Shown here piece after piece: positions 17,526 to 36,893 of a stretch of DNA of 39,878 nucleotides. The DNA is from Fibrobacterota bacterium. GTDB taxonomy: Bacteria > Fibrobacterota > Fibrobacteria > UBA5070. The stretch is from NCBI GenBank assembly GCA_029557215.1, contig JAKPQQ010000222.1:82481-122358 (forward strand). The letters run 5' to 3'. The translations under genes were made by a program, and so were the position numbers. A model generated the notes under the pieces. The model saw nothing but the letters and a program-made list of their open reading frames with translations, ran no database searches and was not told the origin of the DNA. Numbering within the stretch: the first letter of the stretch is position 1; each line of letters begins with the position of its first letter.

Positions 17526-17608
17526 CGGAGGGGGTGGGACTCGAACCCACAAGCCCTTGCGGGCGGCGGTTTTCAAGACCGCTGACTTAGCCATTAGCCT
17601 ACCCCTCC
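17526..17608 (-). tRNA. tRNA-Ser (UGA)
   Basis: The minus strand folds as a class II tRNA. The acceptor stem GGAGGGG (17608-17602) pairs with CCCCTCC before a G discriminator base. The anticodon loop CTTGAAA gives UGA, a long variable arm CGCCCGCAAGGGC-type hairpin follows, and the T arm has TTCGAGT. UGA reads UCN serine codons. CCA is not encoded. Confidence 0.9.
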
Positions 17609-21457: not shown

Positions 21458-21948
21458 TTCCTCGCTTGGCGAGGAGGGCGGACCGCGAACAGGATCGCTC
21501 CGACCAGCATGGTGTACAACGCACCGGGAAGCGACACCTTGGCGACGAACCCGGCAAGCGAATCGCCGCCGTGGCGGGAGGCCATGTGCCAGACGGTATC
21601 GTGCAGCAGCGTCGCGAGCCCGAGGAGCACGACCCGCAGCAGGTAGCCCACGTGCACCCTGCGCTCATGGAGCTGTCCGACCAGGAACCCCACGAGGGAC
21701 ATCGCCAGCGCGAACGCCCCCGCGGCTCCGGAAGCGTACGTGTCCAGAAGCAACCCGCAGCCGAACCCCATCCAGATGGAAGCCAACGGGCCGCTGCGGA
21801 AGGCGAACAGCACGAACACCGCCAGCAGGACCGACGGCTGGATGCCGAAAATCGACAACAACGGAGCGATCGTGACCTGGGCGGCCAGCGCGACCGGCAC
21901 GTACAGCGCGCGCACGAACGAATAGGACGTTTCGGAAGACATGCTCAT
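21451..21948 (-). CDS. mreD: rod shape-determining protein MreD
   Basis: 165 residues, almost all hydrophobic with five or six membrane segments, for example 'FVRALYVPVALAAQVTIAPL' and 'MGFGCGLLLDTYASGAAGAF'. The G-x-x-x-G-x-L-x-D stretch in the second is typical of MreD. MreD belongs to the MreBCD complex that places cell-wall synthesis along the side wall. Its sequence is weakly conserved in general, so position between mreC and mrdA is part of the evidence. The ATG at 21948 overlaps the mreC stop (ATGA); a second ATG lies two codons later. Confidence 0.85.
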   Translation of the reverse strand: MSMSSETSYSFVRALYVPVALAAQVTIAPLLSIFGIQPSVLLAVFVLFAFRSGPLASIWMGFGCGLLLDTYASGAAGAFALAMSLVGFLVGQLHERRVHVGYLLRVVLLGLATLLHDTVWHMASRHGGDSLAGFVAKVSLPGALYTMLVGAILFAVRPPRQARNW

Positions 21949-22805
21949 GGAACCAATCCCCTCGAGGGTTCGGCGGCGAACAGCGAATCGCCTCCGCCCA
22001 CGCGAAGGATCGGCGGCCTCAACAGCACGAAGACGTCCCTGACCTGCCAAGGATCCTGGAACGGTTCGATCCTGGCTTGGCGCATGATGCCGGTGGTGCC
22101 TGTCTTGCGGATCTCGACGACACGCCCGACAGGCAACCCGCGCGGGAAGATCCCCCCGGCCCCCCATGTGACCAGGCTGTCGCCCACGCGGATATCCGAC
22201 GTCGCCCCGTATTCGACGAACACCCCCGAACCTTCCGGGGAGTGGATGATCCCCGGATTGCGGCTGCGCACCGACATGACCGCGACCCTGCAATCGGGAT
22301 CCGACAGGCTCTGCATCTGCGAATAGCCGCCGGTCGACGCCAGGATCCGACCGACCACGCCTTTCGACGAGATCACGGCCATGCCTTCCTGGATCCCTTT
22401 GCGACCACCTTCGTCGAGGATCCAGATCCCGCCCAACCTCACGGGGTCGCGCGAAATCACGCGAGCGCCGATGAACGGGAACTCGAGCCGGGGACGCACC
22501 CCTTCGAATTCACCGATGGTCGAGCGGATGTCGGCGAGCTCGGAAAGCTTGGCGTTTTCCGCGATCAGCCGGGCGTTGTCCCTGCGGATCTCGCGCAGTT
22601 CCTTCTCGATTCCCCAACGGACATGGAGGTGTTCCACGACCAGATGCACGGGAAGGAAGACGGTCGTGGCGAAGCCCTTCCGCCACCCTTTCTGGATGGC
22701 TTCGGGTCGACTGGAAAGCCACAGACAAAATCCGAACACGAAGAGGATCGAAAGGATCTCTCGCCCCTTGAACGCCTGCGACGCAAGCCAGCGGAGGATC
22801 AGCAT
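21945..22805 (-). CDS. mreC: rod shape-determining protein MreC
   Basis: 286 residues. It has an N-terminal membrane anchor (about 16-31), then a coiled coil (about 60-95, 'GIEKELREIRRDNARLIAEN') and the double beta-barrel periplasmic domain with 'FIGARVISRDP', 'GMAVISSKGVVGRI' and 'DSLVTWGAGGIFPRGLPVGR', the family's best-conserved parts. MreC links MreB and MreD to the periplasmic synthases and activates PBP2. The length is normal. It starts 9 bases after the mreB stop and ends overlapping mreD. Confidence 0.92.
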   Translation of the reverse strand: MLILRWLASQAFKGREILSILFVFGFCLWLSSRPEAIQKGWRKGFATTVFLPVHLVVEHLHVRWGIEKELREIRRDNARLIAENAKLSELADIRSTIGEFEGVRPRLEFPFIGARVISRDPVRLGGIWILDEGGRKGIQEGMAVISSKGVVGRILASTGGYSQMQSLSDPDCRVAVMSVRSRNPGIIHSPEGSGVFVEYGATSDIRVGDSLVTWGAGGIFPRGLPVGRVVEIRKTGTTGIMRQARIEPFQDPWQVRDVFVLLRPPILRVGGGDSLFAAEPSRGLVP

Positions 22806-22814
22806 CGGAGGTCC

Positions 22815-23855
22815 TCAGCGGGTGCTGTTGATCAGCACCTTGCGGTAATGGTCCAGGTTTTCGACGATCTTGGCGGTGCCCATGCAGACGCACTGCAGAG
22901 GATTGTCGATGACGTTGACGGGCAGGTTCGTCTCCTGGCGGATGCGCTCGTCCAGGTTGCGCAGCTGCGCCCCGCCGCCGGTCATCACGATGCCCTTGTC
23001 CAGGATGTCGGCGGAAAGCTCGGGTGGAGTCTGCTCCAGCGCCGACTTCACCGCCTGCACGATCGCCGAGACGCATTCTTCCAGGGACTCGCGGATTTCG
23101 GTGGAGGTGATGCGCATGGTGCGGGGGATGCCCGCCGCCACGTCGCGTCCCTTGACTTCCATCGACAATTCCTGCGCCAGCGGGAAGGCCGATCCGATCT
23201 GGATCTTGATCTGTTCGGCGGTCGAAAGCCCGACGAGCAGGTTGTAGTTCTTCTTGAGGTAGTTGACGATCGCCTCGTCCATCTCGTCGCCGCCGATGCG
23301 CACCGATGTGTCGCAGACGATGCCGTAGAGCGCGATCACGGCGATTTCCGACGTGCCGCCGCCGATGTCGATGACCATGTTGCCCGAGGGCTCTTCGACA
23401 GGGATTCCCATCCCGATCGCCGCCGCCATGGGTTCCGACACCAGGTACACCTCGCGGGCCCCGGCCAGCTGGGCCGATTCGATCACGGCACGGCGTTCGA
23501 CTTCGGTGATTCCGCTGGGTACGCCGATGACGACACGCGGACGTCCGAACAAACCTCGCCACAATGGGCTGTGGCTGTGCAGCTTGTCGATGAAATGCTT
23601 GATCATCTCGCGAACCAAGTCGAAGTCGGCGATCACGCCGTCCTTCATGGGTCGAATCGCGAGGATCTCGCCGGGTGTGCGACCCAACATGCGTTTGGCT
23701 TCCGTGCCGAAGGCCTGGACTCGGCCGGTCCGGCGCTCGACCGCCACCACCGAAGGCTCGTCGATGACGATGCCCCGCCCTTGGACATGGACCAAAGTGT
23801 TCGCCGTTCCGAGATCAATCCCGACGTCGTTCGAGAAGAGGGAAAAGAGTCCCAT
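22815..23855 (-). CDS. mreB: actin-like rod shape-determining protein MreB
   Basis: 346 residues. Actin-fold nucleotide motifs are clear: phosphate 1 '[10 protein letters not shown]' (11-20), phosphate 2 '[15 protein letters not shown]' and the adenosine motif '[15 protein letters not shown]'. The N-terminal '[14 protein letters not shown]' is the usual membrane-binding start. MreB polymers on the inner membrane steer side-wall synthesis. The ATG at 23855 was chosen because GGAG lies 6 bases upstream. A TTG ten codons earlier would add residues that MreB proteins lack. It is the first gene of the elongasome operon. The 57 upstream bases before the next terminator contain an AT-rich TATATT (23906-23901), but I found no matching -35 box. 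Confidence 0.96.
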
Positions 23856-23958: not shown

Positions 23959-25227
23959 TCAGAAACTGTAGCTGGCCGAGATCCTGCTCAGGATGTGGTC
24001 GGTGGGACCACCCAGCAAAGCGCCGCCGGTGTAGAGGATGTCCTTGGCCATCACCGCGTCGACCTTGAGCTTGTCTTCGATGTTCAGACCGAAGCCGAAC
24101 GAGACCAGGTCGTTTTCCGGATCGCCACCATTGGGGTTGGTCACGATTCTGGAATTGTCCTCGGTATTTTTCGAATAGTCGCGATTGGCGATGACCTTCT
24201 GGCCACCGACACGGATCACGAACCAGTCGGTCCAGATGTTGCGTTCGATGCCGAACGAGACACGAAGTCCATTCTCTGTGACCGACGTGACATAGTCTCC
24301 TATGGCGATATCGGCGGAGGATGGGGTGTTGGGCAAAGTTTTGCCAAGCAAATTCTGGTCGAAGGCGTTGTTGAAATAATCGACGCCCATCCAGAAGAAG
24401 CCACGGTCCAGCGAAACGTTGGCGCCGGATCCGATCCGGAATTCCGTGCGCTCGAGACCGGGAGCTGTGATGGAGCGGAAGGAAACGGCCGGAACGATCA
24501 CGCCGAAGATCTGCGGGGCCGAGATGAACGTGCGGGCGCTGGCGCCGAAGCTGGGCTCGAACTCGCCGCCGTAGGATGTGCTGCCATCCTTGATCTTGGC
24601 ATCCAGGAAGGCCACCGTGGCGGTCGCTTCCAGGTCGACTCCCTGTCCGAGCGGAGCATTGACGCCGATCGTGTTCACGCTCATCACCGAGGTCACTTGG
24701 TCGTTGCCACTGCTGCTGTCGCCGTAAGCCAAACGGGTCCCGACGCCCACGAGCAGGCCATTGCCGAACGCGGCGCCCAGAAGACCGTCGAACTTCACCG
24801 GAGTCTCGGTGGCGAACGGAGTGGCGACTCCCTTGAGGGAGATCGCGCGGGGGAAGTAGGCATCCCACTCGCTACCGCGATTGAAGGCGCCGCCGATCAC
24901 GGCCTGGGGATAGCGGTTGCCTCCAGCCACGTCGGGCGAGAAGGACTTCGCGAAGATCGCACCGAACCAGGGATCCTTGGGGTCGCGATTGTAGCGCGAA
25001 AAACCCTTGTAGTTGGTCGTGTCTTCGGTGGAATTGCGCAGCGTGCCGAGCTCGCCGAGCAGGTAGTTGGGGTAGAGGTTCGCGTTGGCGGGGTTCGACC
25101 AGACGCTGACGTCGTCCATGAAATAGGTGGCGTGCTTGCCCATGGATTCGACGCGGGCGTTGGTGGCCAGGGCGGCGCCAGCCCCGAGAAGGACGATGCC
25201 TGAAGCCAGAGCGATGCGGTTACTCAT
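23959..25227 (-). CDS. outer-membrane beta-barrel protein (FadL/PorV-like)
   Basis: 422 residues. The signal peptide 'RIALASGIVLLGAGAALA' has a cleavage site near residue 22. The mature start 'NARVESMGKHATYFMDDVSV' followed by 'WSNPANANLYPN' fits the OmpP1/FadL and PorV pattern, in which a small glycine-rich segment leads to an N-P-A-x-L turn. Alternating aromatic and polar strands fill the rest, and the chain ends in 'RISASYSF', a terminal Phe as expected for insertion by the BAM machine. Substrate or partner is unknown. It has its own promoter and terminator and lies between the elongasome operon and the ExbB/ExbD operon. It could supply an extra barrel for the latter; this is inference from position. 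Confidence 0.75.
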   Translation of the reverse strand: MSNRIALASGIVLLGAGAALATNARVESMGKHATYFMDDVSVWSNPANANLYPNYLLGELGTLRNSTEDTTNYKGFSRYNRDPKDPWFGAIFAKSFSPDVAGGNRYPQAVIGGAFNRGSEWDAYFPRAISLKGVATPFATETPVKFDGLLGAAFGNGLLVGVGTRLAYGDSSSGNDQVTSVMSVNTIGVNAPLGQGVDLEATATVAFLDAKIKDGSTSYGGEFEPSFGASARTFISAPQIFGVIVPAVSFRSITAPGLERTEFRIGSGANVSLDRGFFWMGVDYFNNAFDQNLLGKTLPNTPSSADIAIGDYVTSVTENGLRVSFGIERNIWTDWFVIRVGGQKVIANRDYSKNTEDNSRIVTNPNGGDPENDLVSFGFGLNIEDKLKVDAVMAKDILYTGGALLGGPTDHILSRISASYSF

Positions 25228-25424: not shown

Positions 25425-25461
25425 AAAACAAAAAACGACCGGAGGAAGGTTCCTCCGGTCG
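25425..25461 (-). terminator. rho-independent terminator of the ExbB/ExbD/AgmX operon
   Basis: A perfect 11-bp stem (25436-25446 with 25451-25461) with loop AGGT is followed on the minus strand by TTTTTTGTTTT. It lies 30 bases past the stop of the AgmX-like gene. No terminator of this quality is seen anywhere upstream to 36142, which supports one long transcript. Confidence 0.85.
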
Positions 25462-25490
25462 CGAAGTGTGTCGATCCGACGAAGCCGCGA

Positions 25491-26777
25491 TTACTGCTTG
25501 TCGAGAACGAACGCGTAGGTCACGGTCACGTTGCCCTTTTCGATCTGGTCGAACTTCATGCGACGCGCCTTGTCCTTGATCTCGTCGTCCAGTCCCGCGT
25601 CACCCGTGTTGGTGCTGACGATCGAAATCTGGATGATGTCGCCCGAAGGAGCGATGGTGAACTTGAGCGAGATCTTGCCGCCCAGGTTCGGGTTGTTGCG
25701 AAGGTACTTCTCGTAGGTGTAGCGGAAGCCGCCGATGTGCTGACGGATCACGCGCAGAATGGATTCCGGAGAGCGCGATCCCGCCTCGCCACCGAGTTCG
25801 ACGTTGGAAGGCTTGGGAGGAGCGATCTTCGCACGGGTCGCGACACCCGTTCCCGTTCCACCTGCACCCAGGGCCATCTTGCCCTGGCGCGTACCGCCGT
25901 TGCCCGTGCCGAAGCCCGCGCGACCGCCGGTTCCGAGACCGATGCCGCCGATGCCCGCCATGCGGTCACCGTCGCCACCAGCACCCTTGCCGCCGCGTTC
26001 ACCCTTCTTCATCGAGCCGCCGCCGCCCGCCAAGATCACGTCGATCATGTTGGCCTGGTTGGGGTCCACATCTTCGCCCAGAAGACCGTCGGTCGCGGTG
26101 TTGATCTTGTCCATCACCGAGTTCTGCATCACCGCCGAGGGCGACGAAGGAGGCCAGGCGACGGTACGGGTTTCGGTCGAACCGCCCTCGTTCGGATTGG
26201 TGGGCTTCTGGTCGGAAGCGCCACCGGCGTCTTCCTTGGGCTCCGGCTTTTCTTCTTCCTTCTTCTCTTCTTCCTGCTTCTCTTCGACGAGCTGCAGAAC
26301 GATATCCGGAAGAGCGTCGTCCTTGGGTCGCGGCTTGTGTTCCATCAGGATCATGCCGGCCATGGCCGAAATTCCGATGACCATCATTCCCGCCAGAACA
26401 CCCCAGCGCGTCTTGTTGGCGCTGTCACCAGGCTCGCGCCATCCCAGCTTGATGGCGAGCATCATGCGCTGGCGGGCCTTGTCCCAAAGCGTGGTTCGCA
26501 GCGGAGTGTCTTCGATGACCTCGATGACGAAGTTGCCCCAGGTGAACTGGAACGACTCGTCGCGATTGGAATTCATTCCGTTGCGGATGGTGCCGTCGGC
26601 TTGCAGGCAAGCGTATTGCCCCGAGCCTTCGACGACGGCCAGCTTCTCCGGGAAGGGAGGAGGAAGGACAACAGAGTTCTTGGGGTGCGCGCCGATCTTC
26701 AGGCTCGAAGCCCAAAGGGACCATTCGCGTCCGACCTTGTTGTTCTGAAGAAGTACGACTTTCCAGTGGTGGATCAT
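25491..26777 (-). CDS. AgmX/PglI- or TonB-like periplasm-spanning protein with FHA-like N-terminus
   Basis: 428 residues. The cytoplasmic N-terminus (about 1-120) resembles a degenerate FHA-type beta domain ('SLKIGAHPKNSVVLPPP'). One membrane segment follows (about 124-144). Next come a charged Glu/Lys/Pro stretch (about 160-185) and a very Gly-rich linker (about 250-310). The C-terminal domain (about 335-428, 'ILRVIRQHIGGFRYTYEKYL' to 'VTYAFVLDKQ') has the AgmX/PglI C-terminal pattern related to TonB. The layout matches Myxococcus GltG/GltJ-type gliding proteins, which link an ExbB/ExbD-type motor to the outer membrane. It is the last gene of the operon, 10 bases past the ExbD gene. The role is inferred from architecture. 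Confidence 0.75.
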   Translation of the reverse strand: MIHHWKVVLLQNNKVGREWSLWASSLKIGAHPKNSVVLPPPFPEKLAVVEGSGQYACLQADGTIRNGMNSNRDESFQFTWGNFVIEVIEDTPLRTTLWDKARQRMMLAIKLGWREPGDSANKTRWGVLAGMMVIGISAMAGMILMEHKPRPKDDALPDIVLQLVEEKQEEEKKEEEKPEPKEDAGGASDQKPTNPNEGGSTETRTVAWPPSSPSAVMQNSVMDKINTATDGLLGEDVDPNQANMIDVILAGGGGSMKKGERGGKGAGGDGDRMAGIGGIGLGTGGRAGFGTGNGGTRQGKMALGAGGTGTGVATRAKIAPPKPSNVELGGEAGSRSPESILRVIRQHIGGFRYTYEKYLRNNPNLGGKISLKFTIAPSGDIIQISIVSTNTGDAGLDDEIKDKARRMKFDQIEKGNVTVTYAFVLDKQ

Positions 26778-26787
26778 TTCGAATTCC

Positions 26788-27339
26788 TCAGTTCATGCCC
26801 TTGGCGGCAATCTTGATTTGTCGGAATCCGGCGTTGCCGGCGGATCGCATGACAGGCTTGAGAGTCGCGAAGGGAATGGCGCGATCCGCGTGGAGCAGGA
26901 TTTCGCCGTTGAATGGCTTGTTCGGATTGATGCGTTCGATGGCCTGGGCATTTTCCTTCACCTTGTCCAAAGCTTCCTTCAGAGGATGGATGAAGAATCC
27001 GGACCAAACGGAATCCGGAAAGTCGGGGTAGCCGTCCTTCGGATTGATGATGACAGGGCAGATCGGCTTGCCGTCGAGCAGGAGCATGTCCTTCGAAAGC
27101 GAAATCACCGAAACTTCCTTGGGCTTTTCCGACGTGATCAGAACCCTGGCCAATTCGATGTCCTTGGAGTTCGCCAACGTCGCCGGGTCGGCCGAGAAGC
27201 TCATCACCAGGTACACCACCAAGATCGTCATCATGTCGATCATGGGGGTCAGGTTGAGATGGACTTCCTTCTGGGTGCTGGCGCCGCCCCTGCCGAACTT
27301 GCTGCCCTTGACTTGTTGTCCGCCGCCACCTGCACTCAT
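26788..27339 (-). CDS. ExbD/TolR-family motor subunit (first paralogue)
   Basis: 183 residues. A basic cytoplasmic N-terminus with 'GGGGQQVKG' leads to the family motif 'LNLTPMIDMMTILVVYLVMS', a single membrane helix with the key Asp35 that carries protons in ExbD/TolR/MotB-like subunits. The periplasmic part ends 'FATLKPVMRSAGNAGFRQI', the normal ExbD fold end. It works with the ExbB-type protein to turn the proton gradient into motion or force. The ATG overlaps the stop of the other ExbD gene (ATGA). Confidence 0.88.
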   Translation of the reverse strand: MSAGGGGQQVKGSKFGRGGASTQKEVHLNLTPMIDMMTILVVYLVMSFSADPATLANSKDIELARVLITSEKPKEVSVISLSKDMLLLDGKPICPVIINPKDGYPDFPDSVWSGFFIHPLKEALDKVKENAQAIERINPNKPFNGEILLHADRAIPFATLKPVMRSAGNAGFRQIKIAAKGMN

Positions 27340-27890
27340 GGTACGTACACTCCCTTCATGGCAAGCCCCGGGAAGAGCCGCATGCTCTCCTTGAACTGAG
27401 GAACTTCTTCAAGAACCGCATCGGTGCCCGAGAAGGTCTTGGACTGATCGATGATCTGCGCCAATTTCTCGAGCGGCAGCGACGGATGGGGATCAAGCGC
27501 CATGCGTTCCTCGGTCGGGAACTTCTTCTTGATCTCGATGAGGATGCTGTGGAACTTGAGCACCTGCTCTTCCGTGTAGGACGACGAATCCTTGCGATCC
27601 GACGCATCCACGAAGAACTGAGGCGGACCGAGCGGGTCCTTGTTGTTGACGTAGATCTTGATCGAATCCTTCGGCACCATCACGACCAAGTCGAACGGAG
27701 GAGGCATTTTCACCTCCTGCATCCTCTCCGGAGGAATGGGAGTCGGGAGCTTTGCCTCCAAGACCACAACCGTGAAGAAGCTGGCTGTGAGCATAAGGAA
27801 AGGAATCAGCACAATCATCACATCCAAGAAGGGCGTCAGATTCAACGGTTCGTCGAAATCTGCGTCAACATTGAACTTTTTCTTTGCCAT
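27336..27890 (-). CDS. ExbD/TolR-family motor subunit (second paralogue)
   Basis: 184 residues. The membrane helix motif 'LNLTPFLDVMIVLIPFLMLT' holds the proton-carrying Asp23. The periplasmic part contains a proline-rich stretch after the helix ('LPTPIPPERMQ') and is unlike its neighbour beyond the membrane segment. The two were therefore probably kept for distinct jobs, as with the paired TolR-like AglQ and AglS of Myxococcus. It begins 77 bases after the exbB stop and ends overlapping the next ExbD gene. Confidence 0.85.
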   Translation of the reverse strand: MAKKKFNVDADFDEPLNLTPFLDVMIVLIPFLMLTASFFTVVVLEAKLPTPIPPERMQEVKMPPPFDLVVMVPKDSIKIYVNNKDPLGPPQFFVDASDRKDSSSYTEEQVLKFHSILIEIKKKFPTEERMALDPHPSLPLEKLAQIIDQSKTFSGTDAVLEEVPQFKESMRLFPGLAMKGVYVP

Positions 27891-27932
27891 GGATTGGCTC
27901 CGACCTCAGGAAAGATGTCGTCAAGATGGGAA

Positions 27933-27957
27933 CTGCCCAGGATCCGTTCCCGGGCAG
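27933..27957 (-). other. intercistronic hairpin between exbB and the ExbD pair
   Basis: Arms 27933-27941 and 27949-27957 pair over nine positions with one A-C mismatch and a 7-base loop. No T tract follows, so it should not stop transcription. Its place between the ExbB and ExbD coding parts suggests mRNA processing or stability control. Confidence 0.4.
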
Positions 27958-27967
27958 CAGGAATCTC

Positions 27968-28618
27968 TTACTTGGCGTTCTCGTGCAGCTTGCCGAACGC
28001 CTTGAGGGTCACCCAGTCCAGAGCTTCGGAGGAAGCGTGATCGAGTTCTTCGATCAGGTGGGCGGCCTTGGTGGCCAGGTAGGACTGCGCCATCATCATG
28101 AGCACGGCGATGAACAGGCCCTGGAAGGTGTTGTGAAGAGCGTGCGAGATACCCGAGGCCATCACGGTCTGCTTGGTGGCGGCGTCGACGTTGCCGAGGC
28201 CCTTGAACATCGAGATCATGCCCCAAACGGTTCCGACCAGGCCCATGAGCACCGCGACGTTGGCGATGAGGGACAGGTAGGGAAGACGGACGGCGATCTT
28301 GGGAACCACGGTCAGGTAGGCGGCTTCGACGTTCTGCTTGACGAGGGCTTCGTCGCAGCCGTAGCGCTCGACGGCAGCCTTCACCACGGCGGGCACGAGT
28401 CCCTTCTTCTGGTTGGCGCACAGGCGCAGAGCATCGTCGACGCGGTCGTCGACGAGGAGAGCGCGCACCTTCTTCATGAACACCTTGGTGTCCATCGAGT
28501 AGTCGCCCCAGTAGCGCCAGGCACGATCGACCACGATGCCCACGCCGAGGAATCCGACGAACAAGGTGACGAACATGAGGGCGCCGCCCGCGAGATAGAA
28601 TTCAGCCAATCCGTGCAT
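27968..28618 (-). CDS. ExbB/TolQ/MotA-family proton channel subunit
   Basis: 216 residues with three membrane helices at about 11-30, 113-137 and 155-180. The second contains the family mark 'LMGLVGTVWGMISMFKGLG', and the third 'ASGISHALHNTFQGLFIAV'. The Thr/Gly-lined pore helices and cytoplasmic loop fit ExbB/TolQ. It forms the stator channel with ExbD dimers in the inner membrane. The ATG at 28618 was chosen because AGAGG lies 8 bases upstream and the first helix follows at once; an upstream in-frame start would add 19 unlikely residues. Hairpins lie on both sides of the gene. Confidence 0.9.
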   Translation of the reverse strand: MHGLAEFYLAGGALMFVTLFVGFLGVGIVVDRAWRYWGDYSMDTKVFMKKVRALLVDDRVDDALRLCANQKKGLVPAVVKAAVERYGCDEALVKQNVEAAYLTVVPKIAVRLPYLSLIANVAVLMGLVGTVWGMISMFKGLGNVDAATKQTVMASGISHALHNTFQGLFIAVLMMMAQSYLATKAAHLIEELDHASSEALDWVTLKAFGKLHENAK

Positions 28619-28659
28619 GGAAGATACCTCTGAACTATGGGTTTCTTGGATGTGATCAT

Positions 28660-28681
28660 GTCGGGAAAAGACCATCCCGAC
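28660..28681 (-). other. intercistronic hairpin upstream of exbB
   Basis: A perfect 7-bp stem (28660-28666 with 28675-28681) with an 8-base loop lies in the 91-base gap before exbB. A second, weaker stem (28701-28706 with 28715-28720) spans the stop of the preceding gene. Neither is followed by a clear T tract on the minus strand. Confidence 0.4.
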
Positions 28682-28709
28682 CCTGGTTTCAAGCTTTCCT
28701 CAGCGAGAA

Positions 28710-29177
28710 TTATTTCGCTGAATCAGCCTTAGGTTGAGCCGTAATATGGGTGGTGTCCTTGTGAAAATCAACCGGTTTTTCTGCGCTCTTCACTTGGACG
28801 GCTTCACTTGCGGGCTTATTCGACTTCTTGGCAACCCCAGAGGTATCGCTCTTCGCGGGAGCAATCTCGTTTTTCTTCTGAGGAACGACTTCTTCCGTGT
28901 CCACGACCAGATTGAGGATCGGGGGACGGGCATTGGAATCGAGCTTCGCGGGTTCGACCCAACCTTGACGTCCCTTGCGATTGCGGATCTTGGTCAGTGG
29001 GGTTCCCCACTTCAGGACCTCGACGACTTCACCCTTCTCGAGGACGTAGAGCGGGCGCTCGTAGACGCGCCTCTGCTCGGTCGGATAGACATTGGCTGGA
29101 CCGCGCACCGTGACGATGGTTGCGGCGCCGACCAGTCCGGCGGCAAGCAGAATAGCACCAACGATTCGCCTGTTCAT
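28710..29177 (-). CDS. small SH3-like domain protein with N-terminal signal or anchor
   Basis: 155 residues. It has a hydrophobic N-terminus (about 5-22), then a bacterial SH3-like domain: 'ANVYPTEQ', 'VLEKGEVVEVLKWGTPLTKI' and 'RKGRQGWVEPAKL' carry the usual strand and Trp pattern. The last 65 residues are Lys/Ser/Glu-rich and probably disordered. SH3-like domains of this kind often bind peptidoglycan or peptide stems in the periplasm. A single base separates it from the stop of the large TPR gene. A role in anchoring the neighbouring complex to the cell wall is inference. Confidence 0.65.
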   Translation of the reverse strand: MNRRIVGAILLAAGLVGAATIVTVRGPANVYPTEQRRVYERPLYVLEKGEVVEVLKWGTPLTKIRNRKGRQGWVEPAKLDSNARPPILNLVVDTEEVVPQKKNEIAPAKSDTSGVAKKSNKPASEAVQVKSAEKPVDFHKDTTHITAQPKADSAK

Positions 29178-29178
29178 G

Positions 29179-32100
29179 TCAATTCCTCTTGAGTTTAGCC
29201 TTCAGTTCCTGGATTGCGGTCATCAGGTCTTGTTCGGTGCGCTGACCTTCGGTCTTCATGGCCTGGAGGGCGCGCAGCTTTTCTTCGCGATCGAGATTTC
29301 CTTCCGCGATTTCCTTCGCACGGGCCATGGCGCGGGCAAGGTCCTTGTCGGACTTGTCCTGAGGCGCTGCCTGGACGACGGCTTCCACGATCTGGGTCTC
29401 GAGAATCTTGTTGTCGGGGGTCAGTTCCTTGATCTTGTTCTTCAAGGAGTCCAACACGGGCCCCACGATCCCCATCTCGGCGGCCTTCTCGACACCGGGA
29501 ACATATCCCTTGTCGACCGACAGCTTCTGGAAGGAGATCATGTTGTCTTCCTTCTGGGCCTTGTGGTACTCGCATTCTTCGTTGTACTGGTCGGAGTTGG
29601 GCTTGGCCCTGGAAGGGCAGGGCTCTTCGAGAATCGCGTTGCCGATCTGTTCGAATCCTTCGCCGGTGAAGTAGAACGTCCTGAGGATGGACTGGCCCGC
29701 GGCACGGGTCTGTTCGTTCTGGATGCCCGCCTTGCGGGTCAAGGCCAGGAACGACTCGTACTGCTTGGCGGTACGCGACGCGAGGGTCGGGATGATTCCC
29801 TTGGCCACGCCCACGCGGAACAGGATGCGCTCCTGGATCGCCTTGAGGTTGGTGCCCTGGGGAGGTTCGATCGCCCTGGCATCCGTCAGCATCTTCATCT
29901 CGTTGGCGGCTTCCTGCTCGGCGGACTTGATGGTCCACTCTTCGATCAGGAGCTTGATCGAGTTGTCGAAGTACTCGTTGGTCTTCTTGATGGCCTCGGT
30001 CCGGGACTTGATGGCTTCCGCGATCTTCTTGACGTCGCTGGTCTGCGGCATCTTGATCTGGTTGATCGAGTCGGTGCGGATCATGCCCTGCCGGTAGTAG
30101 GCTTCGGCCGGAATGGAAGCGTCGATCGCGACGGCGTTCTTGCCTTCCTTGTAGTAGTTGATCAGCTTGGTATAGAGTTCGTCGGCCTTCTTGACGTTCT
30201 TGGTGCTGTCGTAGTACCAAGCCGCACGCAGGTAGGCCTTGGAAACCTTGGACTTGTCGTTCGGGTACTGGGTCGCGAAGATTTCGTAGGCTTCGGCCAT
30301 CTTGGCGCGATTGCCCTGCTTCTCTTCGATGATGGGCACCGAGAAGGCGGCTTCAGGCGCGTACTGGTGCTTGGGATACTGGGCGATCACAAGCCTGTAG
30401 ATGCGAACGGCCTCGTTCCACTGCTTGGCCTTTTCGTAGCTCAAGCCTGCGGTGTACAGAAATCCGGGAGTCTGCTCGTGCTTGGGGTAACGCGCATAGT
30501 AGATCTCGAGGGTCTTGGCCTTGTCGGCGTGGCGACCAGCACCTTCGTACAAGCTGGCGGCCTGCGAGATTCCCTTGAATGCCGCGGAATCCGAAGTGTT
30601 CGGGTAGTACCTGTACAAGCTGTCCAAGAGGATCGCCACACCGGCAACCGTGTCCTTGGCCTGACGGAACTGGTCGGCGGCAGCCTGGATGGCCATGATG
30701 CAAAGGCTGGACTTCCCGCGGTAGGTGCGTTCGAAGCCCATGTACTCCTGGGCGGCTTCGCGATGCCGCTTGGCGTTTTCCAGCGCGACAGCGGCACGGA
30801 AGGCGGCCGAGTCGGCGATGTTCAAGGTGGTGTATTCGCGGGCCAGACGACGGAAGTGGAACACGGCGGAATCGGTCTTGCCGGCCTTTTCCGCGTTTTC
30901 GGCCATGCGCCAGATGACTTCGCCGATGTTGTTGGTCATGGCGGCGTTGAGGGTGTCGCCCTTGGGCAACGCTGCGATGACAGCTCGGTATTCCCGTTCC
31001 GCTTCTTGGAATTTGCCCGACTGGGTGTACGCGTAACCCATGCGGGCGCGGGTGTCGTTGGCGAACTTGTAGGTGGGATAGTTCTTGACCAGGCGGTTGC
31101 CCGTGGCGATCGCGTTGGCCCAATCCTGCCCGTTGACCTGGAACAGGAACAAGTTGTAGGTCAGGTCCGGGGCATCCTGCGCCTTCGGGAACTTGACGAG
31201 ATAGTTTTCCACCGCAGCCATGTAACGCTTGGTGATGGGCTGGTTGTAGGCCTTGACTTGGTCTCCACCCTGCTTGGCGACTTCGCCCGCGGCGGCGAGC
31301 TGGAGTTCGACCACTGCATTGTAACCGGCATCCACAGGCTGGGTCAACTTGCGTTCGGCGATGGTCGGTTCGCGATACTTCTTGGGGTCGTTGACGTTCT
31401 CGCCGGACGCCCAGATGTAGACATCGGCGGCTTCCTCGTGGCGACCGACATAGGAGAGAGCGTCGGCCAGATAGATCTTGGCGCGATAGATGGGCCAGTT
31501 GCCTTCCGATCCGTACTGCTCGATGAAGCGCTGATAGTTCTGGATGCCCTTCTTGACCATGTTCGAGTCCCTGCGATCCTTGCCGGGGAAGTGCAGCTGC
31601 ATGGCAACTTCCAGCATGACGTCGCGGACGCGAATCTGGATCTGTTCCAGTTCCTTGCGGTCGATGTTGCGAGGCTTGCTCCACCATGGGCTGTTCTTGC
31701 CGAACTTCTGGACGAGCTGCTCGCGAGCCTCCTGGGCTTCTTCGATCTTCTTCTTCTTGTCCCAGACTTCGACAAGCTTGATCTGGGCGAGCGGTGCCTT
31801 GAAGTAGTCGGGGTAGTTCTTGAGGAAGTATTCGATGGCGGGAATGGCCAAGTCGTGCTGGTCGCGATCGGCGTGCTTGACCGCCAATTCGTAGAACAAG
31901 GTGTCTTCGTAACGACGTCCGCCCTTGGTTCCGAAGTACTTCTTGGCATCCTTGTAGGAATCGGGGAATTCTGCGAAGCAGGAACCCATGTAGAGAATGG
32001 CTTCCGAGCGCAGGTCACCGCGGATCTGGCCGCGATCGGCGCGCTCGACGTAGTCGAAGAAGGCATCCACGGCGGTCTGGTAGCGGGCCTTCTGGTAGAG

Positions 32101-32985
32101 GGCCTCGGCCTTGTGGTACAACGCCAATCCGAGCACGGCCTCGTTGCCGGGCATGTTGGGGTCGACCTTGTTGTAGTAGGCGATGGCCGAGTCGTACTTT
32201 TTGTCGACGAAGTAGAATTCGCCGATGCGGAGATTGGCCGGGCCGATCTGGCGCGACTGCGGGAAGTTGCGGGAAATTTCCATCAGAAGCGGGAAGGCTT
32301 CGGTGGAACGCCCCATGAGGTCGTAGATGAACGCGGTACGATAGAGAATCACGTCGCGACGACCACCCGCGGGAACTTCCTTGAGGTAGCGCTGGTGCGC
32401 GGCCAGCCCCTTGGCGTAGGAAGGCAGGCTCTGGCTCGGTTCCTTGCCGCGCTTGTCGTTTTCCTTCCAGCGTTCGTATTCGCGTTCGTACTTCTCGCGA
32501 TTGGCCAGATTCTGGCGCTGGTCCATCTGGTAGTTGATGTCGGCGATGTTGAACAGACCGTCTTCGCAGCGCTTCTGGTCACCCTTGGGGTTGCAGTTGT
32601 CCTTGGCCACCTGCTCGTACAGCGCCAGCGTCTTGATGATGTCCCCGGCGGTTTCCGGGCACAGCGCCTTGAACTTCTGGATGTCGTCGTTCAGTGGCGA
32701 GATCTTGGCCCCGATCGCCGCCACCTGGTTGCGCAGGGGCTTGAGTTCGTCCATGCAACGATCTTTTTTGGCGCCCGTCATCTTTTCGCAATCGGCCTTC
32801 TTCGACTTGCCCTGCTCGTTGAGCTTGTTGACCTGCTCCATGAGCTTGGCCTTGTCGGCCTGCGTCTTGTCCAAGGCGACGCAGTCCGCGTTGCGGCCCG
32901 CCGGAGCCGCATGCCCCAGCGTCGCAACCATGCCGGTGAGAAGGATCGTCGAGAAAAGAAACCTTGCGTTCATGATAGCGCTCAT
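29179..32985 (-). CDS. large periplasmic TPR scaffold protein, 1268 residues
   Basis: A signal peptide ('ARFLFSTILLTGMVATLGHA') is followed by a charged coiled-coil-like region (about 35-125) and then many TPR-type helix pairs, for example 'QIGPANLRIGEFYFVDKKYD', 'PDLTYNLFLFQVNGQDW' and 'TPGFLYTAGLSYEKAKQWNE'. The last 200 residues are again helical and charged. Two in-frame ATGs (32985 and 32973) are possible and neither has a strong ribosome binding site; the second puts the signal peptide nearer the start. Giant periplasmic TPR proteins (such as GltI/AgmK) are part of the Myxococcus gliding complex; similarity here is of architecture only. Confidence 0.8.
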   Translation of the reverse strand: MSAIMNARFLFSTILLTGMVATLGHAAPAGRNADCVALDKTQADKAKLMEQVNKLNEQGKSKKADCEKMTGAKKDRCMDELKPLRNQVAAIGAKISPLNDDIQKFKALCPETAGDIIKTLALYEQVAKDNCNPKGDQKRCEDGLFNIADINYQMDQRQNLANREKYEREYERWKENDKRGKEPSQSLPSYAKGLAAHQRYLKEVPAGGRRDVILYRTAFIYDLMGRSTEAFPLLMEISRNFPQSRQIGPANLRIGEFYFVDKKYDSAIAYYNKVDPNMPGNEAVLGLALYHKAEALYQKARYQTAVDAFFDYVERADRGQIRGDLRSEAILYMGSCFAEFPDSYKDAKKYFGTKGGRRYEDTLFYELAVKHADRDQHDLAIPAIEYFLKNYPDYFKAPLAQIKLVEVWDKKKKIEEAQEAREQLVQKFGKNSPWWSKPRNIDRKELEQIQIRVRDVMLEVAMQLHFPGKDRRDSNMVKKGIQNYQRFIEQYGSEGNWPIYRAKIYLADALSYVGRHEEAADVYIWASGENVNDPKKYREPTIAERKLTQPVDAGYNAVVELQLAAAGEVAKQGGDQVKAYNQPITKRYMAAVENYLVKFPKAQDAPDLTYNLFLFQVNGQDWANAIATGNRLVKNYPTYKFANDTRARMGYAYTQSGKFQEAEREYRAVIAALPKGDTLNAAMTNNIGEVIWRMAENAEKAGKTDSAVFHFRRLAREYTTLNIADSAAFRAAVALENAKRHREAAQEYMGFERTYRGKSSLCIMAIQAAADQFRQAKDTVAGVAILLDSLYRYYPNTSDSAAFKGISQAASLYEGAGRHADKAKTLEIYYARYPKHEQTPGFLYTAGLSYEKAKQWNEAVRIYRLVIAQYPKHQYAPEAAFSVPIIEEKQGNRAKMAEAYEIFATQYPNDKSKVSKAYLRAAWYYDSTKNVKKADELYTKLINYYKEGKNAVAIDASIPAEAYYRQGMIRTDSINQIKMPQTSDVKKIAEAIKSRTEAIKKTNEYFDNSIKLLIEEWTIKSAEQEAANEMKMLTDARAIEPPQGTNLKAIQERILFRVGVAKGIIPTLASRTAKQYESFLALTRKAGIQNEQTRAAGQSILRTFYFTGEGFEQIGNAILEEPCPSRAKPNSDQYNEECEYHKAQKEDNMISFQKLSVDKGYVPGVEKAAEMGIVGPVLDSLKNKIKELTPDNKILETQIVEAVVQAAPQDKSDKDLARAMARAKEIAEGNLDREEKLRALQAMKTEGQRTEQDLMTAIQELKAKLKRN

Positions 32986-33029
32986 CTAGAAAAAGTTGCA
33001 GGTCAACCGAAGGGGTGGATCTGACAGGA

Positions 33030-35186
33030 TCAGAATTCGGTACCGCCCGTGCCGGCACTTTCGAGACATTTCTTGGCGGTCGCCAAGGCGTAGGTCGCGT
33101 CCTTCTCGAGACGGGCCTTGTCCTTTTCGAACTTCTTCTGCTTGTTCACGATGTCCTGGAACTTGAAGAAGTCTTCCTTGGCGGTGGCGATGCGGTCGAT
33201 GTTCGGCTTGACCGCGGCGCGCTTGTCGAGCACGCGCTCCGAGGGCAGCTGCAGGGACAGTTGGTAGACCTTTTCCATGACTTCCGAGGAGTCCGCGGTC
33301 GCGGTCTGGTAGTCGGTGGTCTTCTTCTGGATTTCCTCGGCGGTGAGGAAGCCCTTGCCGATCATCTGCTGCACGGTTTCGAAGCTCTTCACCGCATTGC
33401 CGCAATCCTTGCGCGACAGCTGGCCGTATCCCTTGACCAGGTGGCCTTCGGGGATCAGGATCGAGGTGGGAGCCTTGTCCATGATGTTGTCGATGTGCTT
33501 GTTCGCGTCATCCCAGAACTTGGGGTTGGACGCGGCGTTGCGCACAAAGCACCAGGCGGCGGCAAGCTGGGCTTCGTCGTAGTAGCTGGAGTTGCTGGGG
33601 ACCTGGGTGTAAAGGTCCAGGGCGCGTGTCAGCTGAGGCTGGGGCAGCGAGTACAGAACGTGTCCAAGACGGACCGCGGCGGCTTCCTGGAGGTCCTTTT
33701 CGGACTTGTTGCGCGGCTGGCGGGTGAGCACGGCTTCGAAACGCTGCTGGGCCTCTTCGAGCTTGCCTTCGCGGGTCGCGATCTGGCCGAGGGTGTACTG
33801 GGCGTAGCCGTAGTTGGCGTCGTCCTTTCCGATGCTTTCCAGGAGCTGGCGGGATTCGGAATCCTTGCCCTGGGCGAAATAGGCCTGGCCCATGACGTAG
33901 TCGGCGTCGGACTTGATGTCGGAGCTCTTGTACTGGCTGGCGATGATGTTGTAGTTGTTCTGGGCTTCCGACCAGTTGCTTTCCTTGTAGGCGATGTTCA
34001 GCAGCTGGAAGTAGTACTTGGGCACGTAGGCCGAAGCGTCGTAGTTCTGGATGCCCGTCTGGTAGACCTTCTTGGCCACCGCGTTCATTTCCATGTTCTC
34101 CAGGCTCTTGCCCTGGTAGTAGGACGCGATGTCGGCCTTGCGGTAGGTGGGGTACTTGACCACCACGCGTCCGAAGGAGTAGGCCGATTCGAGGAAGCGG
34201 CGCTGGAGGTAGAGTTTCATGGCGGCCTGGAAGGCTTCTTCCGGCTCGCGGATCAGACGGGTGTAGCGCTTGGAGCCCTGGACTTCTTCGCGCGTGGGTC
34301 CGAACCGGCTGGTCAGCTTGACGTTCCAGAGCAGACCGCGCTTCTGGTCTTCCCAGGAAATGCCGTCGTGCGAGATGTCGAGCTCGATTTCGAAGTAGCG
34401 GATGATCGCCAAACGCTGGGCGTTGCCCGAGAACGAAAGCATGGGGAAGCCTTCGCGGGTGATCTTGCCACCAAGCGCCACGTTGGGCGACATGAAGTAG
34501 AGAGCACCGACAGCCCAGGCGTTCTGGGATTGGCCGGTGAAGTCGATCATGGAGAATTCGGCGCGGCCTTCGAGGGAGCGATCCAGTCCGAGCCAGTGCA
34601 CGCCAAGATTCACGTTCTGGGTGTTGTCGAATCCGGGCTGCTGGTAGGCGTTCTGGACCGATCCACCGATCTTGAGGAAACCGGTCTTGGAGTTCTGGAA
34701 CGGATTGAACAGGACGCCGACGTCGGTGGCGATGGGGTAGGTCTTGGCGTCGCCGAAGTTGTTGAAGTTGAGCACCTGGACGTTGGCGCCCAAGGTCATC
34801 CAATGGAAGACGCGGTAGCCGTAGCCCAGCAGGATGGCGTCCTTGCGCCAGGTCGTGCTGCCGGCATCGACCACGCCTTCGGTCTTGTCGACCGTGGCGC
34901 CGTTGATGAACACGGAGGCGCCGATGGTGTGGTTGTAGCCGATCGGGAACACGCCGGAGACGTATTCCAGTCCGGCTTTGCCGTTCACCGTGCTGTACAT
35001 GCCGAACATGACTTCGGTCTGGTCGGCGTCGGTGATGTTGCCCGGATTGATGAATGCAGCCGTGTTCGTGCCGAAATCGCCGAAGTAGTCGGTCTGCTGA
35101 TAACGGGTCTTGGAGTACTCGAGGGCCAGAGCGTTGCCGGAGAGCAGAAGCGTTGCGGCAAGGGCGGCGTTGCGTGCGTTGTTCAC
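33030..35186 (-). CDS. outer-membrane beta-barrel fused to a TPR domain
   Basis: 718 residues. The signal peptide 'MNNARNAALAATLLLSGNAL' has cleavage near residue 21. The mature N-terminus up to about residue 290 alternates in barrel-like strands, with a PorV/FadL-like opening ('FGTNTAAFINPGNIT') and later 'GLLWNVKLTSRFGPTREEV'. From about 305 to the end there are TPR-type helix pairs ('AAMKLYLQRRFLESAYSFGR', 'YAQYTLGQIATREGKLEEAQ') and a charged helical tail. The protein should sit in the outer membrane with the TPR part in the periplasm, able to bind partners. Barrel and TPR in one chain is uncommon. It lies between the beta-helix and large TPR genes of the same operon. Confidence 0.75.
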   Translation of the reverse strand: MNNARNAALAATLLLSGNALALEYSKTRYQQTDYFGDFGTNTAAFINPGNITDADQTEVMFGMYSTVNGKAGLEYVSGVFPIGYNHTIGASVFINGATVDKTEGVVDAGSTTWRKDAILLGYGYRVFHWMTLGANVQVLNFNNFGDAKTYPIATDVGVLFNPFQNSKTGFLKIGGSVQNAYQQPGFDNTQNVNLGVHWLGLDRSLEGRAEFSMIDFTGQSQNAWAVGALYFMSPNVALGGKITREGFPMLSFSGNAQRLAIIRYFEIELDISHDGISWEDQKRGLLWNVKLTSRFGPTREEVQGSKRYTRLIREPEEAFQAAMKLYLQRRFLESAYSFGRVVVKYPTYRKADIASYYQGKSLENMEMNAVAKKVYQTGIQNYDASAYVPKYYFQLLNIAYKESNWSEAQNNYNIIASQYKSSDIKSDADYVMGQAYFAQGKDSESRQLLESIGKDDANYGYAQYTLGQIATREGKLEEAQQRFEAVLTRQPRNKSEKDLQEAAAVRLGHVLYSLPQPQLTRALDLYTQVPSNSSYYDEAQLAAAWCFVRNAASNPKFWDDANKHIDNIMDKAPTSILIPEGHLVKGYGQLSRKDCGNAVKSFETVQQMIGKGFLTAEEIQKKTTDYQTATADSSEVMEKVYQLSLQLPSERVLDKRAAVKPNIDRIATAKEDFFKFQDIVNKQKKFEKDKARLEKDATYALATAKKCLESAGTGGTEF

Positions 35187-35203
35187 GAGTCGTCTCCCCG
35201 GTA

Positions 35204-36142
35204 TTACTTGGAGTTGTTCTTGGACGTGTTGGACTTCTCAGATTCGGAATCCGCGGGTGGTGCCGCCGATTCTGAACTGGAAGCCGCTGGCTCGTCGGAT
35301 GCACTCGACGAACCGGCATCGGGGACGACGGTCGAGCCGTCGTAGAGCCCGATATCCACCTTGCCTTCACCTCGTCCCAGCATCGGGGATTCGTTCTTGC
35401 ATTTGAGATTCAGCGAGAAGGGCGATGCGGAGATGAACAACGGATCGAGCGACAGGTTGGTCTTGTTCACCTTCGCGTACTTGTTGAAGGGGTAGTAGTT
35501 GTGCCAGATGTTGTTGTTGTTGATCCGGACATCCATTTCCTTGTCGACGAACACGCCATACTCGTGGTTGCCCACGAAGATGTTGTTGCGCAAGTTGACG
35601 CGTCCAGGACCCAACGCGCTGATGCCGGAATAGCCGTTCCGGACGATCACGTTGTTTTCGATCCACACGTTCTGGGCGTTCACGCCGTAGAGCAGGATGC
35701 CCGACCAGCGGTTGCCGAAGATCACGTTGTTCTTGATGTGCGGCTGCGAGATGTACGCACCGATACCCGCACCGTGATTGTCCATGATGATGTTGTCATG
35801 GATCTTGGGTGTGGTGTTTTCGCAGAGGATGCCGTCGATGCCGTTGCGAATGGTGAATCCGTAGATTTCACCTTGGGCTTCGCCCAGCACGGTAGGCCCG
35901 CGGCGACCTCCGTCGATGATGGTCGTTGCTGGGTTTTCACCCGCAAGGACGACACCTTGGTTCAGTTTGACGTTCTCGTTGTAGACACCGGCTTTTACAA
36001 AGATGGTGTCTCCGAAGTCGACATTGCGGAATGCTTCCCGGATGGAAGGATACTGCGTCGGGACGACGACGGTCTTGGCGAAAACAGCGGATGTAAGGCC
36101 CGCTAGGCCCAGGGCGAAGCCGAGGGACACGGAGTGCTTCAT
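35204..36142 (-). CDS. secreted parallel beta-helix repeat protein
   Basis: 312 residues. The signal peptide is 'MKHSVSLGFALGLAGLTSAV' with cleavage near residue 22. A short pectate-lyase-like opening ('VPTQYPSIREAFRNVDFGDT') follows. Right-handed beta-helix coils with regular asparagine turns, such as 'GFTIRNGIDGILCENTTPKI' and 'IENNVIVRNGYSGISAL', run from about 60 to 215. The tail (273-312) is Ser/Ala/Glu-rich and disordered. The fold is that of polysaccharide-binding or -cutting proteins, but I see no catalytic set. The ATG at 36142 has AGGA 7 bases upstream; a start 18 codons earlier is less likely. It is the first gene of the operon and may bind sugar outside the cell or on the envelope. 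Confidence 0.75.
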   Translation of the reverse strand: MKHSVSLGFALGLAGLTSAVFAKTVVVPTQYPSIREAFRNVDFGDTIFVKAGVYNENVKLNQGVVLAGENPATTIIDGGRRGPTVLGEAQGEIYGFTIRNGIDGILCENTTPKIHDNIIMDNHGAGIGAYISQPHIKNNVIFGNRWSGILLYGVNAQNVWIENNVIVRNGYSGISALGPGRVNLRNNIFVGNHEYGVFVDKEMDVRINNNNIWHNYYPFNKYAKVNKTNLSLDPLFISASPFSLNLKCKNESPMLGRGEGKVDIGLYDGSTVVPDAGSSSASDEPAASSSESAAPPADSESEKSNTSKNNSK

Positions 36143-36239
36143 GGCGATTCCTGGCTGGTGGTAAGGAAAACGGAGCACTGGAGTTAGAAACTGCACGGCG
36201 CAAATGGAAAGATGCCACAGTGTTGTGACACCGAGGGAA

Positions 36240-36266
36240 AGTATGGTTCTGCTGAGAACCAGTCAA
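36240..36266 (-). promoter_or_regulatory. candidate promoter of the envelope-machine operon with nested operator-like palindrome
   Basis: On the minus strand, TTGACT (36266-36261) and CATACT (36245-36240) are 15 bases apart. The spacer is filled by the perfect inverted repeat GGTTCTCAGCAGAACC (36260-36245, arms of 6 with a 4-base centre). The -10 box and short spacer are imperfect, so an activator or repressor acting on the palindrome is likely if this is the promoter. It lies about 98 bases before the start codon at 36142. Confidence 0.5.
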
Positions 36267-36791: not shown

Positions 36792-36820
36792 CGAAGACTC
36801 CAAGGGACCTAGAAATGAAG

Positions 36821-36893
36821 CTGGCTGAGTAGGACTCGAACCTACGACCGGGCGGTTAACAGCCGCCTGCTCTACCGACTGAGCTATCAGCCA
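36821..36893 (-). tRNA. tRNA-Asn (GUU)
   Basis: The minus strand gives a complete cloverleaf of 73 bases. The acceptor TGGCTGA pairs with TCAGCCA before a G discriminator base. The D arm is GCTC/GAGC, the anticodon stem GGCGG/CCGCC has loop CTGTTAA (anticodon GUU), and the T arm is GTAGG/CCTAC with TTCGAGT. CCA is not encoded. Confidence 0.95.

Follow-up and report, generated by a model that had tools for sequence, protein, structure and literature searches.

A conserved Fibrobacterota gene cluster with the parts of a candidate proton-driven, envelope-spanning machine

We infer, with a probability of about 0.5, that an operon in a 39,878-nucleotide stretch of Fibrobacterota DNA (the window) encodes a proton-driven machine of the cell envelope whose task is to anchor or move adhesion complexes at the surface, perhaps together with MreB. 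The operon has already been seen in Fibrobacter succinogenes proteomics as FSU_2396-2404; reading it as one energized machine names testable parts and replaces two partial readings, TonB import (FSU_2400-2403; PMC6851124) and vesicle formation (PMC8092306).

Operon architecture

An eight-gene operon with small or overlapping gaps and a single strong terminator had been described in the initial annotation, and the open reading frames, gaps and terminator were all found. The run occupies the minus strand from 36142 to 25491, with all eight open reading frames at their annotated coordinates and successive gaps of 17, 44, 1, approximately 91, 77, −4 and 10 nt. Its extent needs amending: the run does end at the terminator, but the conserved unit continues past it to a PopA-like porin and mreBCD.

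35204-36142, minus strand: secreted right-handed beta-helix protein (PF13229, 61 bits)
33030-35186, minus strand: PorV/PorQ-like outer-membrane barrel (approximately residues 25-300) joined to a TPR domain in the periplasm (TPR models, alignment)
29179-32985, minus strand: 1268-residue periplasmic TPR protein with a signal peptide and without a lipobox (TPR_6, 79 bits)
28710-29177, minus strand: small SH3-like protein that has a single hydrophobic segment at its N terminus (TIGR04211, 24 bits; cut-off 65)
27968-28618, minus strand: ExbB/TolQ-type proton channel (PF01618, 84 bits)
27336-27890, minus strand: ExbD1 (PF02472, 43 bits)
26788-27339, minus strand: ExbD2 (PF02472, 52 bits), overlapping ExbD1 by 4 nt
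25491-26777, minus strand: AgmX, a candidate force transducer with a transmembrane (TM) segment, a Gly-rich stretch and an AgmX-TonB tail (NF033768, 82 bits)
25435-25462, minus strand: intrinsic terminator closing the eight-gene run (12 bp, 8 G-C, T-rich tail), the sole strong terminator
23959-25227, minus strand: PopA-like outer-membrane porin (NF053618, 55 bits; cut-off 150), the conserved next gene
22818-23855, minus strand: mreB (13-residue sequence motif), a conserved neighbour in class Fibrobacteria, with mreC, mreD and PBP2 next
21451-22293: MreD (TIGR03426, above cut-off)

Matches above the Pfam cut-offs were obtained for ExbB, for both ExbDs, for the TPRs in the 1268-residue protein and for the right-handed beta-helix. 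The ExbB frame opens at 28675 and the beta-helix frame at 36196; alignment places the conserved starts at 28618 and 36142, the latter probably being the true start of the beta-helix protein.

Conservation across the phylum

A profile of the barrel/TPR protein matches 154 of 168 Fibrobacterota genomes, most of which have a single core locus. All loci with the motor genes, irrespective of class, keep one order: beta-helix, barrel/TPR, TPR, ExbB, ExbD1, ExbD2, AgmX and PopA-like porin. The genes are thus not scattered in relatives, a possibility that was checked, and because their order is fixed across the phylum they cluster far more than expected by chance. Directly downstream lie mreB-mreC-mreD-PBP2 in class Fibrobacteria (24/24 loci); three loci from other classes (L078-L080) do not have this linkage. 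G002 (98% complete) and G012 lack the cluster as a unit: the former has no TPR, barrel or AgmX match, and in the latter these matches are weak only. In other classes a divergently oriented neighbour of the cluster resembled PorE at first sight but is a TolB-propeller/Omp85 protein.

On gene order and kinds of product, which are the same, the operon is orthologous to FSU_2396-2404 of F. succinogenes S85 (Fisuc_1891-1897 and the next gene), with the PopA-like porin gene as the counterpart of FSU_2404 by position. The identification follows from agreement in mass and pI between the proteins of close relatives and FSU_2396-2403: products of L133/L134/L043 have masses of 53.2, 83.7, 146.7, 23.0, 32.45, 18.24 and 32.45 kDa, and the published values are 53.24 (Fisuc_1891), 83.84, 146.67, 23.06, 32.44, 18.24 and 32.45 kDa. 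In F. succinogenes growth on cellulose raises the cluster proteins 1.2-1.7-fold, and both ExbDs as well as the TonB-like protein were detected solely in cells grown on cellulose (PMC6851124, PMC4619616); the eight-gene cluster is also strongly expressed in the rumen (PMC8092306). This species, a major rumen cellulose degrader, is reported to be non-motile and has neither a cellulosome nor known motility genes; its erosion of crystalline cellulose follows the fibre axis (PMC3079729). The phylum also includes flagellated and chitin-degrading lineages (PMC4704652), and the spread of the cluster over it makes cellulose unlikely as the sole purpose. A literature search for a mutant, structure or movement assay of the cluster returned none.

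A putative proton motor with two unlike ExbDs

The proton-carrying membrane Asp is kept in all 29 ExbD2 copies in the alignment. ExbD1 has this residue in the window and its genus and lacks it in 28/28 operon copies outside that genus. Retention in one protein and loss in the other suggest that ExbD1 and ExbD2 form a mixed axle in which a single subunit works. Such near-universal loss bears on the question raised by AglQ and AglS, namely whether unlike ExbD-type proteins share a mixed axle; a conserved Asp is stated for both of those proteins (PMC9389320), unlike the ExbD1 of most operon members.

Transducer and outer-membrane parts

The AgmX/PglI tail of the transducer exceeds the NF033768 cut-off (82 versus 40 bits) and scores 27.5 versus 27.1 bits with the TonB C-terminal model TIGR01352; Pfam TonB_C is below cut-off. 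Its TM segment (residues 127-145) has no His, and His is likewise absent from this segment in 18 homologues.

The 1268-residue TPR protein has homologues in approximately 50 relatives at E<1e-100, and the barrel/TPR protein is 36-40% identical across the class. Relatives' barrels score up to 43.9 bits with PorV_fam NF033709 (cut-off 90) and the window protein has no match, so that any relationship to the PorV-PorQ family appears to be remote only. In structures predicted from two sequences the TPR part was modelled and the barrel part had a pLDDT of approximately 20-30; PDB profile searches with the barrel and PopA-like proteins gave TPR matches only, or none. Relatives' beta-helix proteins carry an additional TSP3-like linker and, in nearly all, a C-terminal OmpA domain (PF00691), with the D..R peptidoglycan motif found in the OmpA-bearing members. 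The initial annotation saw no obvious counterpart for the beta-helix and barrel/TPR proteins in known systems; the OmpA anchor that most relatives carry and the PorV-like barrel argue that neither lacks one.

Proposed mechanism

We propose an envelope-spanning, Fibrobacterota-specific machine of the Tol/Exb/Agl kind. In the inner membrane, ExbB and an ExbD1-ExbD2 axle would use the ExbD2 Asp for protons. AgmX would relay the force of the motor by way of its periplasmic Gly-rich region and its TonB-like tail to a TPR layer, made up of the long periplasmic protein together with the TPR part of the PorV-like barrel protein, and in most members the beta-helix protein would tie the outer-membrane part to peptidoglycan. 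The output may be that complexes which bind polysaccharide fibres at the surface are held, loaded or moved, with MreB perhaps as a guide.

The suggestion that this is a related but distinct machine carrying force from inner membrane to surface is supported in part: it agrees with the anatomy, with the conserved gene order and with the lack of a TonB-dependent receptor among the nine cluster proteins. Complex formation, force transmission and function are all things that we infer, and surface movement is a possible output. As support for the adhesion-machine reading we counted the fixed order, the 154/168 genomes, the FSU masses and pI, the cellulose and rumen data, the published proposal of a complex of FSU_2396 and FSU_2397 with FSU_2078 and the cellulose-binding FSU_2502 (PMC8092306), the ExbD2 Asp, the OmpA motif and the MreB linkage; counted against it were the non-motility of F. 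succinogenes, the presence of the cluster in a phylum with flagellated and chitin-degrading lineages, the relatives without the cluster, the window's beta-helix protein without OmpA and the three loci without MreB linkage. A bolder version, in which a phylum-wide, MreB-scaffolded machine drives fibre-binding complexes through an obligate ExbD1-ExbD2 heterodimer axle with one working Asp, we consider doubtful; if true, it would help to explain the directional attack of Fibrobacter on crystalline cellulose.

Known systems and alternative explanations

Among known systems, the Agl-Glt/Nfs machines of Myxococcus xanthus have a core of AglRQS and GltC, D, E and G (PMC3169522). Shared with them are one ExbB-type (AglR-type) channel and a pair of ExbD-type proteins, a TM protein ending in an AgmX/GltG tail, TPR proteins within a single cluster and the MreB link. 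The operon differs in its PorV-like barrel and beta-helix-OmpA protein, in bearers not known to glide, and in scores far below cut-off for GltG (72 bits here, 112 at best in 20 genomes; cut-off 650), GltC (at most 36 of 450 bits) and GltE (20 of 225 bits). The same source (Luciano et al. 2011) reports an Agl-Glt-type core complex in F. succinogenes, for which FSU_2396-2404 is the likeliest locus. With Tol-Pal the operon shares a TolQ/TolR-type motor, CpoB-like TPRs and, in relatives, an OmpA-family anchor, but TolB and Pal are absent from the cluster. All genomes searched encode TolB-like proteins at other sites (a weak match in G266), in the window's genome next to an ExbB/ExbD pair on C186; a role in replacing Tol-Pal was therefore rejected. 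The operon appears to resemble Agl-Glt and Tol machines yet to fall outside the definitions of GltG, Tol-Pal, TonB transport and PorLM.

The most serious competitor, although an unlikely one, is envelope upkeep during elongation: the machine would pull or position the links between outer membrane and peptidoglycan along the elongating side wall in coordination with MreBCD-PBP2, and adhesion would be a by-product. A near-universal cluster, mostly at one core locus per genome, the direct mreBCD-PBP2 linkage in 24 loci and the OmpA peptidoglycan anchor of relatives all fit this proposal, but the rise of the cluster proteins on cellulose (PMC6851124), a separately encoded canonical TolB, some nearly complete genomes without the cluster and the lack of MreB linkage at the loci of other classes do not. 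We think it improbable that the operon instead supplies the energizing core for type IX secretion in Fibrobacterota, in place of PorL/PorM. SprA/Sov is above cut-off in 18/18 genomes and GldM/PorM was recognized in none of the 18 (the positive control, G229, gave 3e-108), and the operon offers a proton motor, a PorV/PorP-like barrel and a large TPR protein; however, it encodes no GldM-type protein, all its barrel and TPR matches to type IX models are below cut-off, the weak PorW/SprE similarity of its TPR proteins is at the TPR level, G002 and G012 have SprA without the cluster as a unit, and PorL/PorM may exist in forms that have diverged beyond the model.

Both published proposals seem to us very improbable. 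TonB-type cellodextrin import, proposed for FSU_2400-2403, would account for ExbB, ExbD and the TonB-like tail, the induction on cellulose and the porin-like neighbour. Plain TonB transport calls for a receptor partner, and none of the nine cluster proteins has a plug or TonB-dependent receptor domain in Pfam; nor did the original authors find a MalA-like receptor (PMC6851124). The transducer TM also lacks the His of TonB and TolA, the two ExbDs are unlike, and import leaves no obvious role for the TPR and OmpA parts. Outer-membrane vesicle formation, marginally less probable again, rests on strong rumen expression and on a proposed vesicle protein complex in which FSU_2396 and FSU_2397 join FSU_2078 and the 180-kDa cellulose-binding fibro-slime protein FSU_2502, a complex cited second-hand (PMC8092306). 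Abundant outer-membrane proteins would be expected in vesicles anyway, and the proton motor would be left without a role.

Features of the window's genus

An FHA domain had been assigned to AgmX, and this label is not supported: Pfam gave no FHA match at E<=1, the PDB profile matches included none, and the confidence of a single-sequence structure model was too low. The N-terminal region (approximately 115 residues), which is particular to the window's genus, amounts at most to a degenerate FHA-like domain. The SH3-like gene is present as described, but its model match is below cut-off and no counterpart was found at loci outside the genus. A second AgmX locus in the window's genome (C315) was rejected as an Agl-Glt core because no ExbB or TPR gene was recognized there. 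Compared with relatives, the genus thus has an extra SH3-like gene, an extra AgmX N terminus, a shorter ExbD1 that has the Asp, and no OmpA domain; in the window's beta-helix protein a Ser/Lys-rich tail stands in its place.

A conserved eight-gene cluster

As the initial annotation proposed, a minus-strand run of eight overlapping or narrowly spaced genes ends at a single terminator.

36142–25491, minus, eight-gene run
25462–25435, minus, 12-bp terminator closing the run
36820–36893, minus, tRNA-Asn, immediately upstream of the operon
17526–17608, strand not given, tRNA-Ser

Pfam and NCBIfam confirm ExbB, two ExbDs, two TPR proteins, a beta-helix protein and the AgmX/PglI tail of the candidate force transducer (AgmX); the product of the SH3-like gene matches TIGR04211 under the cut-off. 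The FHA label that had been given to the AgmX N terminus did not hold: Pfam returned no match at E ≤ 1, and no FHA structure appeared among the results of a profile search built from four paralogous N termini. A degenerate FHA-like domain is the most that this region could be in the window. The genome that includes the window, on its contig C90, measures 4.04 Mb and is 81% complete; its nearest relative is a Fibrobacteres MAG (81% identity across the TPR protein), which places the genome in Fibrobacterota.

The genes are not scattered in relatives. Every sufficiently long locus, among the first 17 from the class, those added later from the class and seven outside it, has the order beta-helix, barrel/TPR, TPR, ExbB, ExbD1, ExbD2, AgmX and PopA-like porin; the last was not recognizable in 2 of the first 17 (L050 and L057). 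Across the phylum, the barrel/TPR profile matches 154 of 168 genomes, including 84 of the 89 good ones, in 40 of 41 genera; about 50 of the 61 genomes of the class encode a homologue of the 1,268-residue TPR protein at E < 1e-100. Matches to both proteins are weak in a distant genome (G022, locus L058), and the cluster is absent from a few nearly complete genomes, such as G002. Among about 127 families sampled outside the phylum, one genome per family, G266 alone gave a full-length beta-helix match (E = 5e-161); its contig fragments also carry TPR, ExbB, ExbD and AgmX homologues in an order consistent with the cluster. The cluster is real and extends across the phylum as a variant of the Tol/Exb/Agl machine class; its function, discussed below, is an inference.

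Some Fibrobacter-like genomes have extra stand-alone barrel/TPR copies with no motor genes nearby (L086, L087, L088 and L089). A TolB-propeller protein whose C terminus is Omp85-like (L077:12337–15606, plus; L079:337–3597, minus) is encoded next to the beta-helix gene, and divergently from it, in other classes; similar matches are adjacent in a few further genomes.

Motor, anchor and barrel

A membrane aspartate carries the proton in ExbD, TolR and MotB. This residue is present in all 29 ExbD2 copies and is replaced in all 28 operon copies of ExbD1 outside the window's genus (Gly 13, Asn 10, Ser 3, Cys 1, Ala 1); many of the ExbD1 copies, not all, have an Asp at the membrane edge, six residues before. 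Most simply, this would mean that ExbD1 is under relaxed constraint and that ExbD1 and ExbD2 form a mixed axle. The window's genus has the ExbD1 Asp, and its ExbB and ExbD1 have very long branches, of 2.7 and 2.5 changes per site, implying that its motor was replaced or evolved fast; the Asp could be ancestral or could have arrived with that change.

The beta-helix protein of nearly all relatives continues into a linker followed by an OmpA domain (PF00691, E ~1e-25) with the HTD...R motif typical of peptidoglycan binders. In the window's genus they give way to a Ser/Lys-rich tail, and this genus alone has the SH3-like gene between TPR and ExbB, a pattern suggesting an anchor swap. Several relatives have a barrel part that resembles PorV/PorQ (at most 43.9 bits, below the cut-off of 90), and in one case it is PorP-like.

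On this anatomy, proton flow through ExbB and ExbD2 would turn the motor axle, AgmX would link the axle to the TPRs of the periplasm and outer membrane, peptidoglycan would be gripped by the OmpA domain and by the periplasmic domains of the ExbDs, and the barrel would convey the effect outward.

The Fibrobacter succinogenes counterpart

Published masses and pI of FSU_2396–2403 of F. succinogenes agree almost exactly with the products of Fibrobacter-like loci, and the mass listed under a further locus tag, Fisuc_1891, agrees with the beta-helix product that FSU_2396 matches. FSU_2396–2403 proteins are 1.2- to 1.73-fold higher on cellulose (PMC6851124); FSU_2396, 2401, 2402 and 2403 were listed as cellulose-only detections (PMC4619616), although Fisuc_1891 was detected on glucose as well. 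The eight-gene cluster FSU_2396–2404 is highly expressed in the rumen (PMC8092306). No motility genes were identified in the genome paper, which noted that cellulose breakdown proceeds along the crystal axis (PMC3079729). Luciano et al. (2011) report an Agl–Glt core complex in F. succinogenes (PMC3169522), which is probably this locus. The cluster was known piecemeal in one species and, in the literature found, was not recognized as a unit.

Possible outputs

The most likely output, at a probability of roughly one half, is surface adhesion complexes.

The Myxococcus Agl–Glt machine operates together with MreB, making it suggestive that mreB, mreC, mreD (identified in the window by TIGR03426) and PBP2 directly follow the cluster in all 24 class Fibrobacteria loci that reach that far. 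The linkage also fits a role in elongation, and envelope upkeep during elongation is a possible, clearly less probable output; mreB is not present past the PopA-like gene in the three other-class loci extending there (L078–L080). Energizing of the T9SS, which we consider unlikely, is raised by the finding of SprA/Sov in all 18 genomes examined and of recognizable GldM/PorM in none, in a search that worked on its positive control (G229); against it, two SprA-bearing genomes lack the cluster. Previously the F. succinogenes cluster was read as importing cellodextrins by a TonB mechanism or as forming vesicles (PMC6851124, PMC4619616 and PMC8092306), FSU_2396 and FSU_2397 being proposed vesicle partners of the cellulose-binding FSU_2502 (PMC8092306). 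We regard import as improbable and vesicles as slightly more so. Replacement of Tol–Pal is unnecessary, because TolB-type proteins are encoded outside the cluster in the genomes searched.

Transducer paralogues

The cytoplasmic N terminus of AgmX is variable: missing in groups f2 and f3, unique in the window's genus and, in other classes (for example, L077:1003–2307 and L082:758–2068), weakly similar to the ribosomal L7/L12 C-terminal domain (E = 0.001–0.06 overall, 0.001–0.01 for these two examples). The window's genus has a second locus (L062, G000:C315, 2062–7769; counterpart L106, G001:C367) that encodes a lipoprotein-like VIT/VWA protein, the AgmX tail of which shares 67% identity with the window's. 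This pairing of VWA with an AgmX tail is reminiscent of CglB, an adhesin, and of force transducers of the VWA type. The locus also encodes paralogues of AgmX (51%) and ExbD1 and a third protein sharing the same N terminus. Nearby, L062:13607–15055 (minus) encodes a fusion of an LRR protein with a protein-kinase domain. Fibrobacterota have an expanded set of AgmX/GltG-type tails (G036, G028, G060 and others), with up to 12 GltG-model matches per genome in many architectures.
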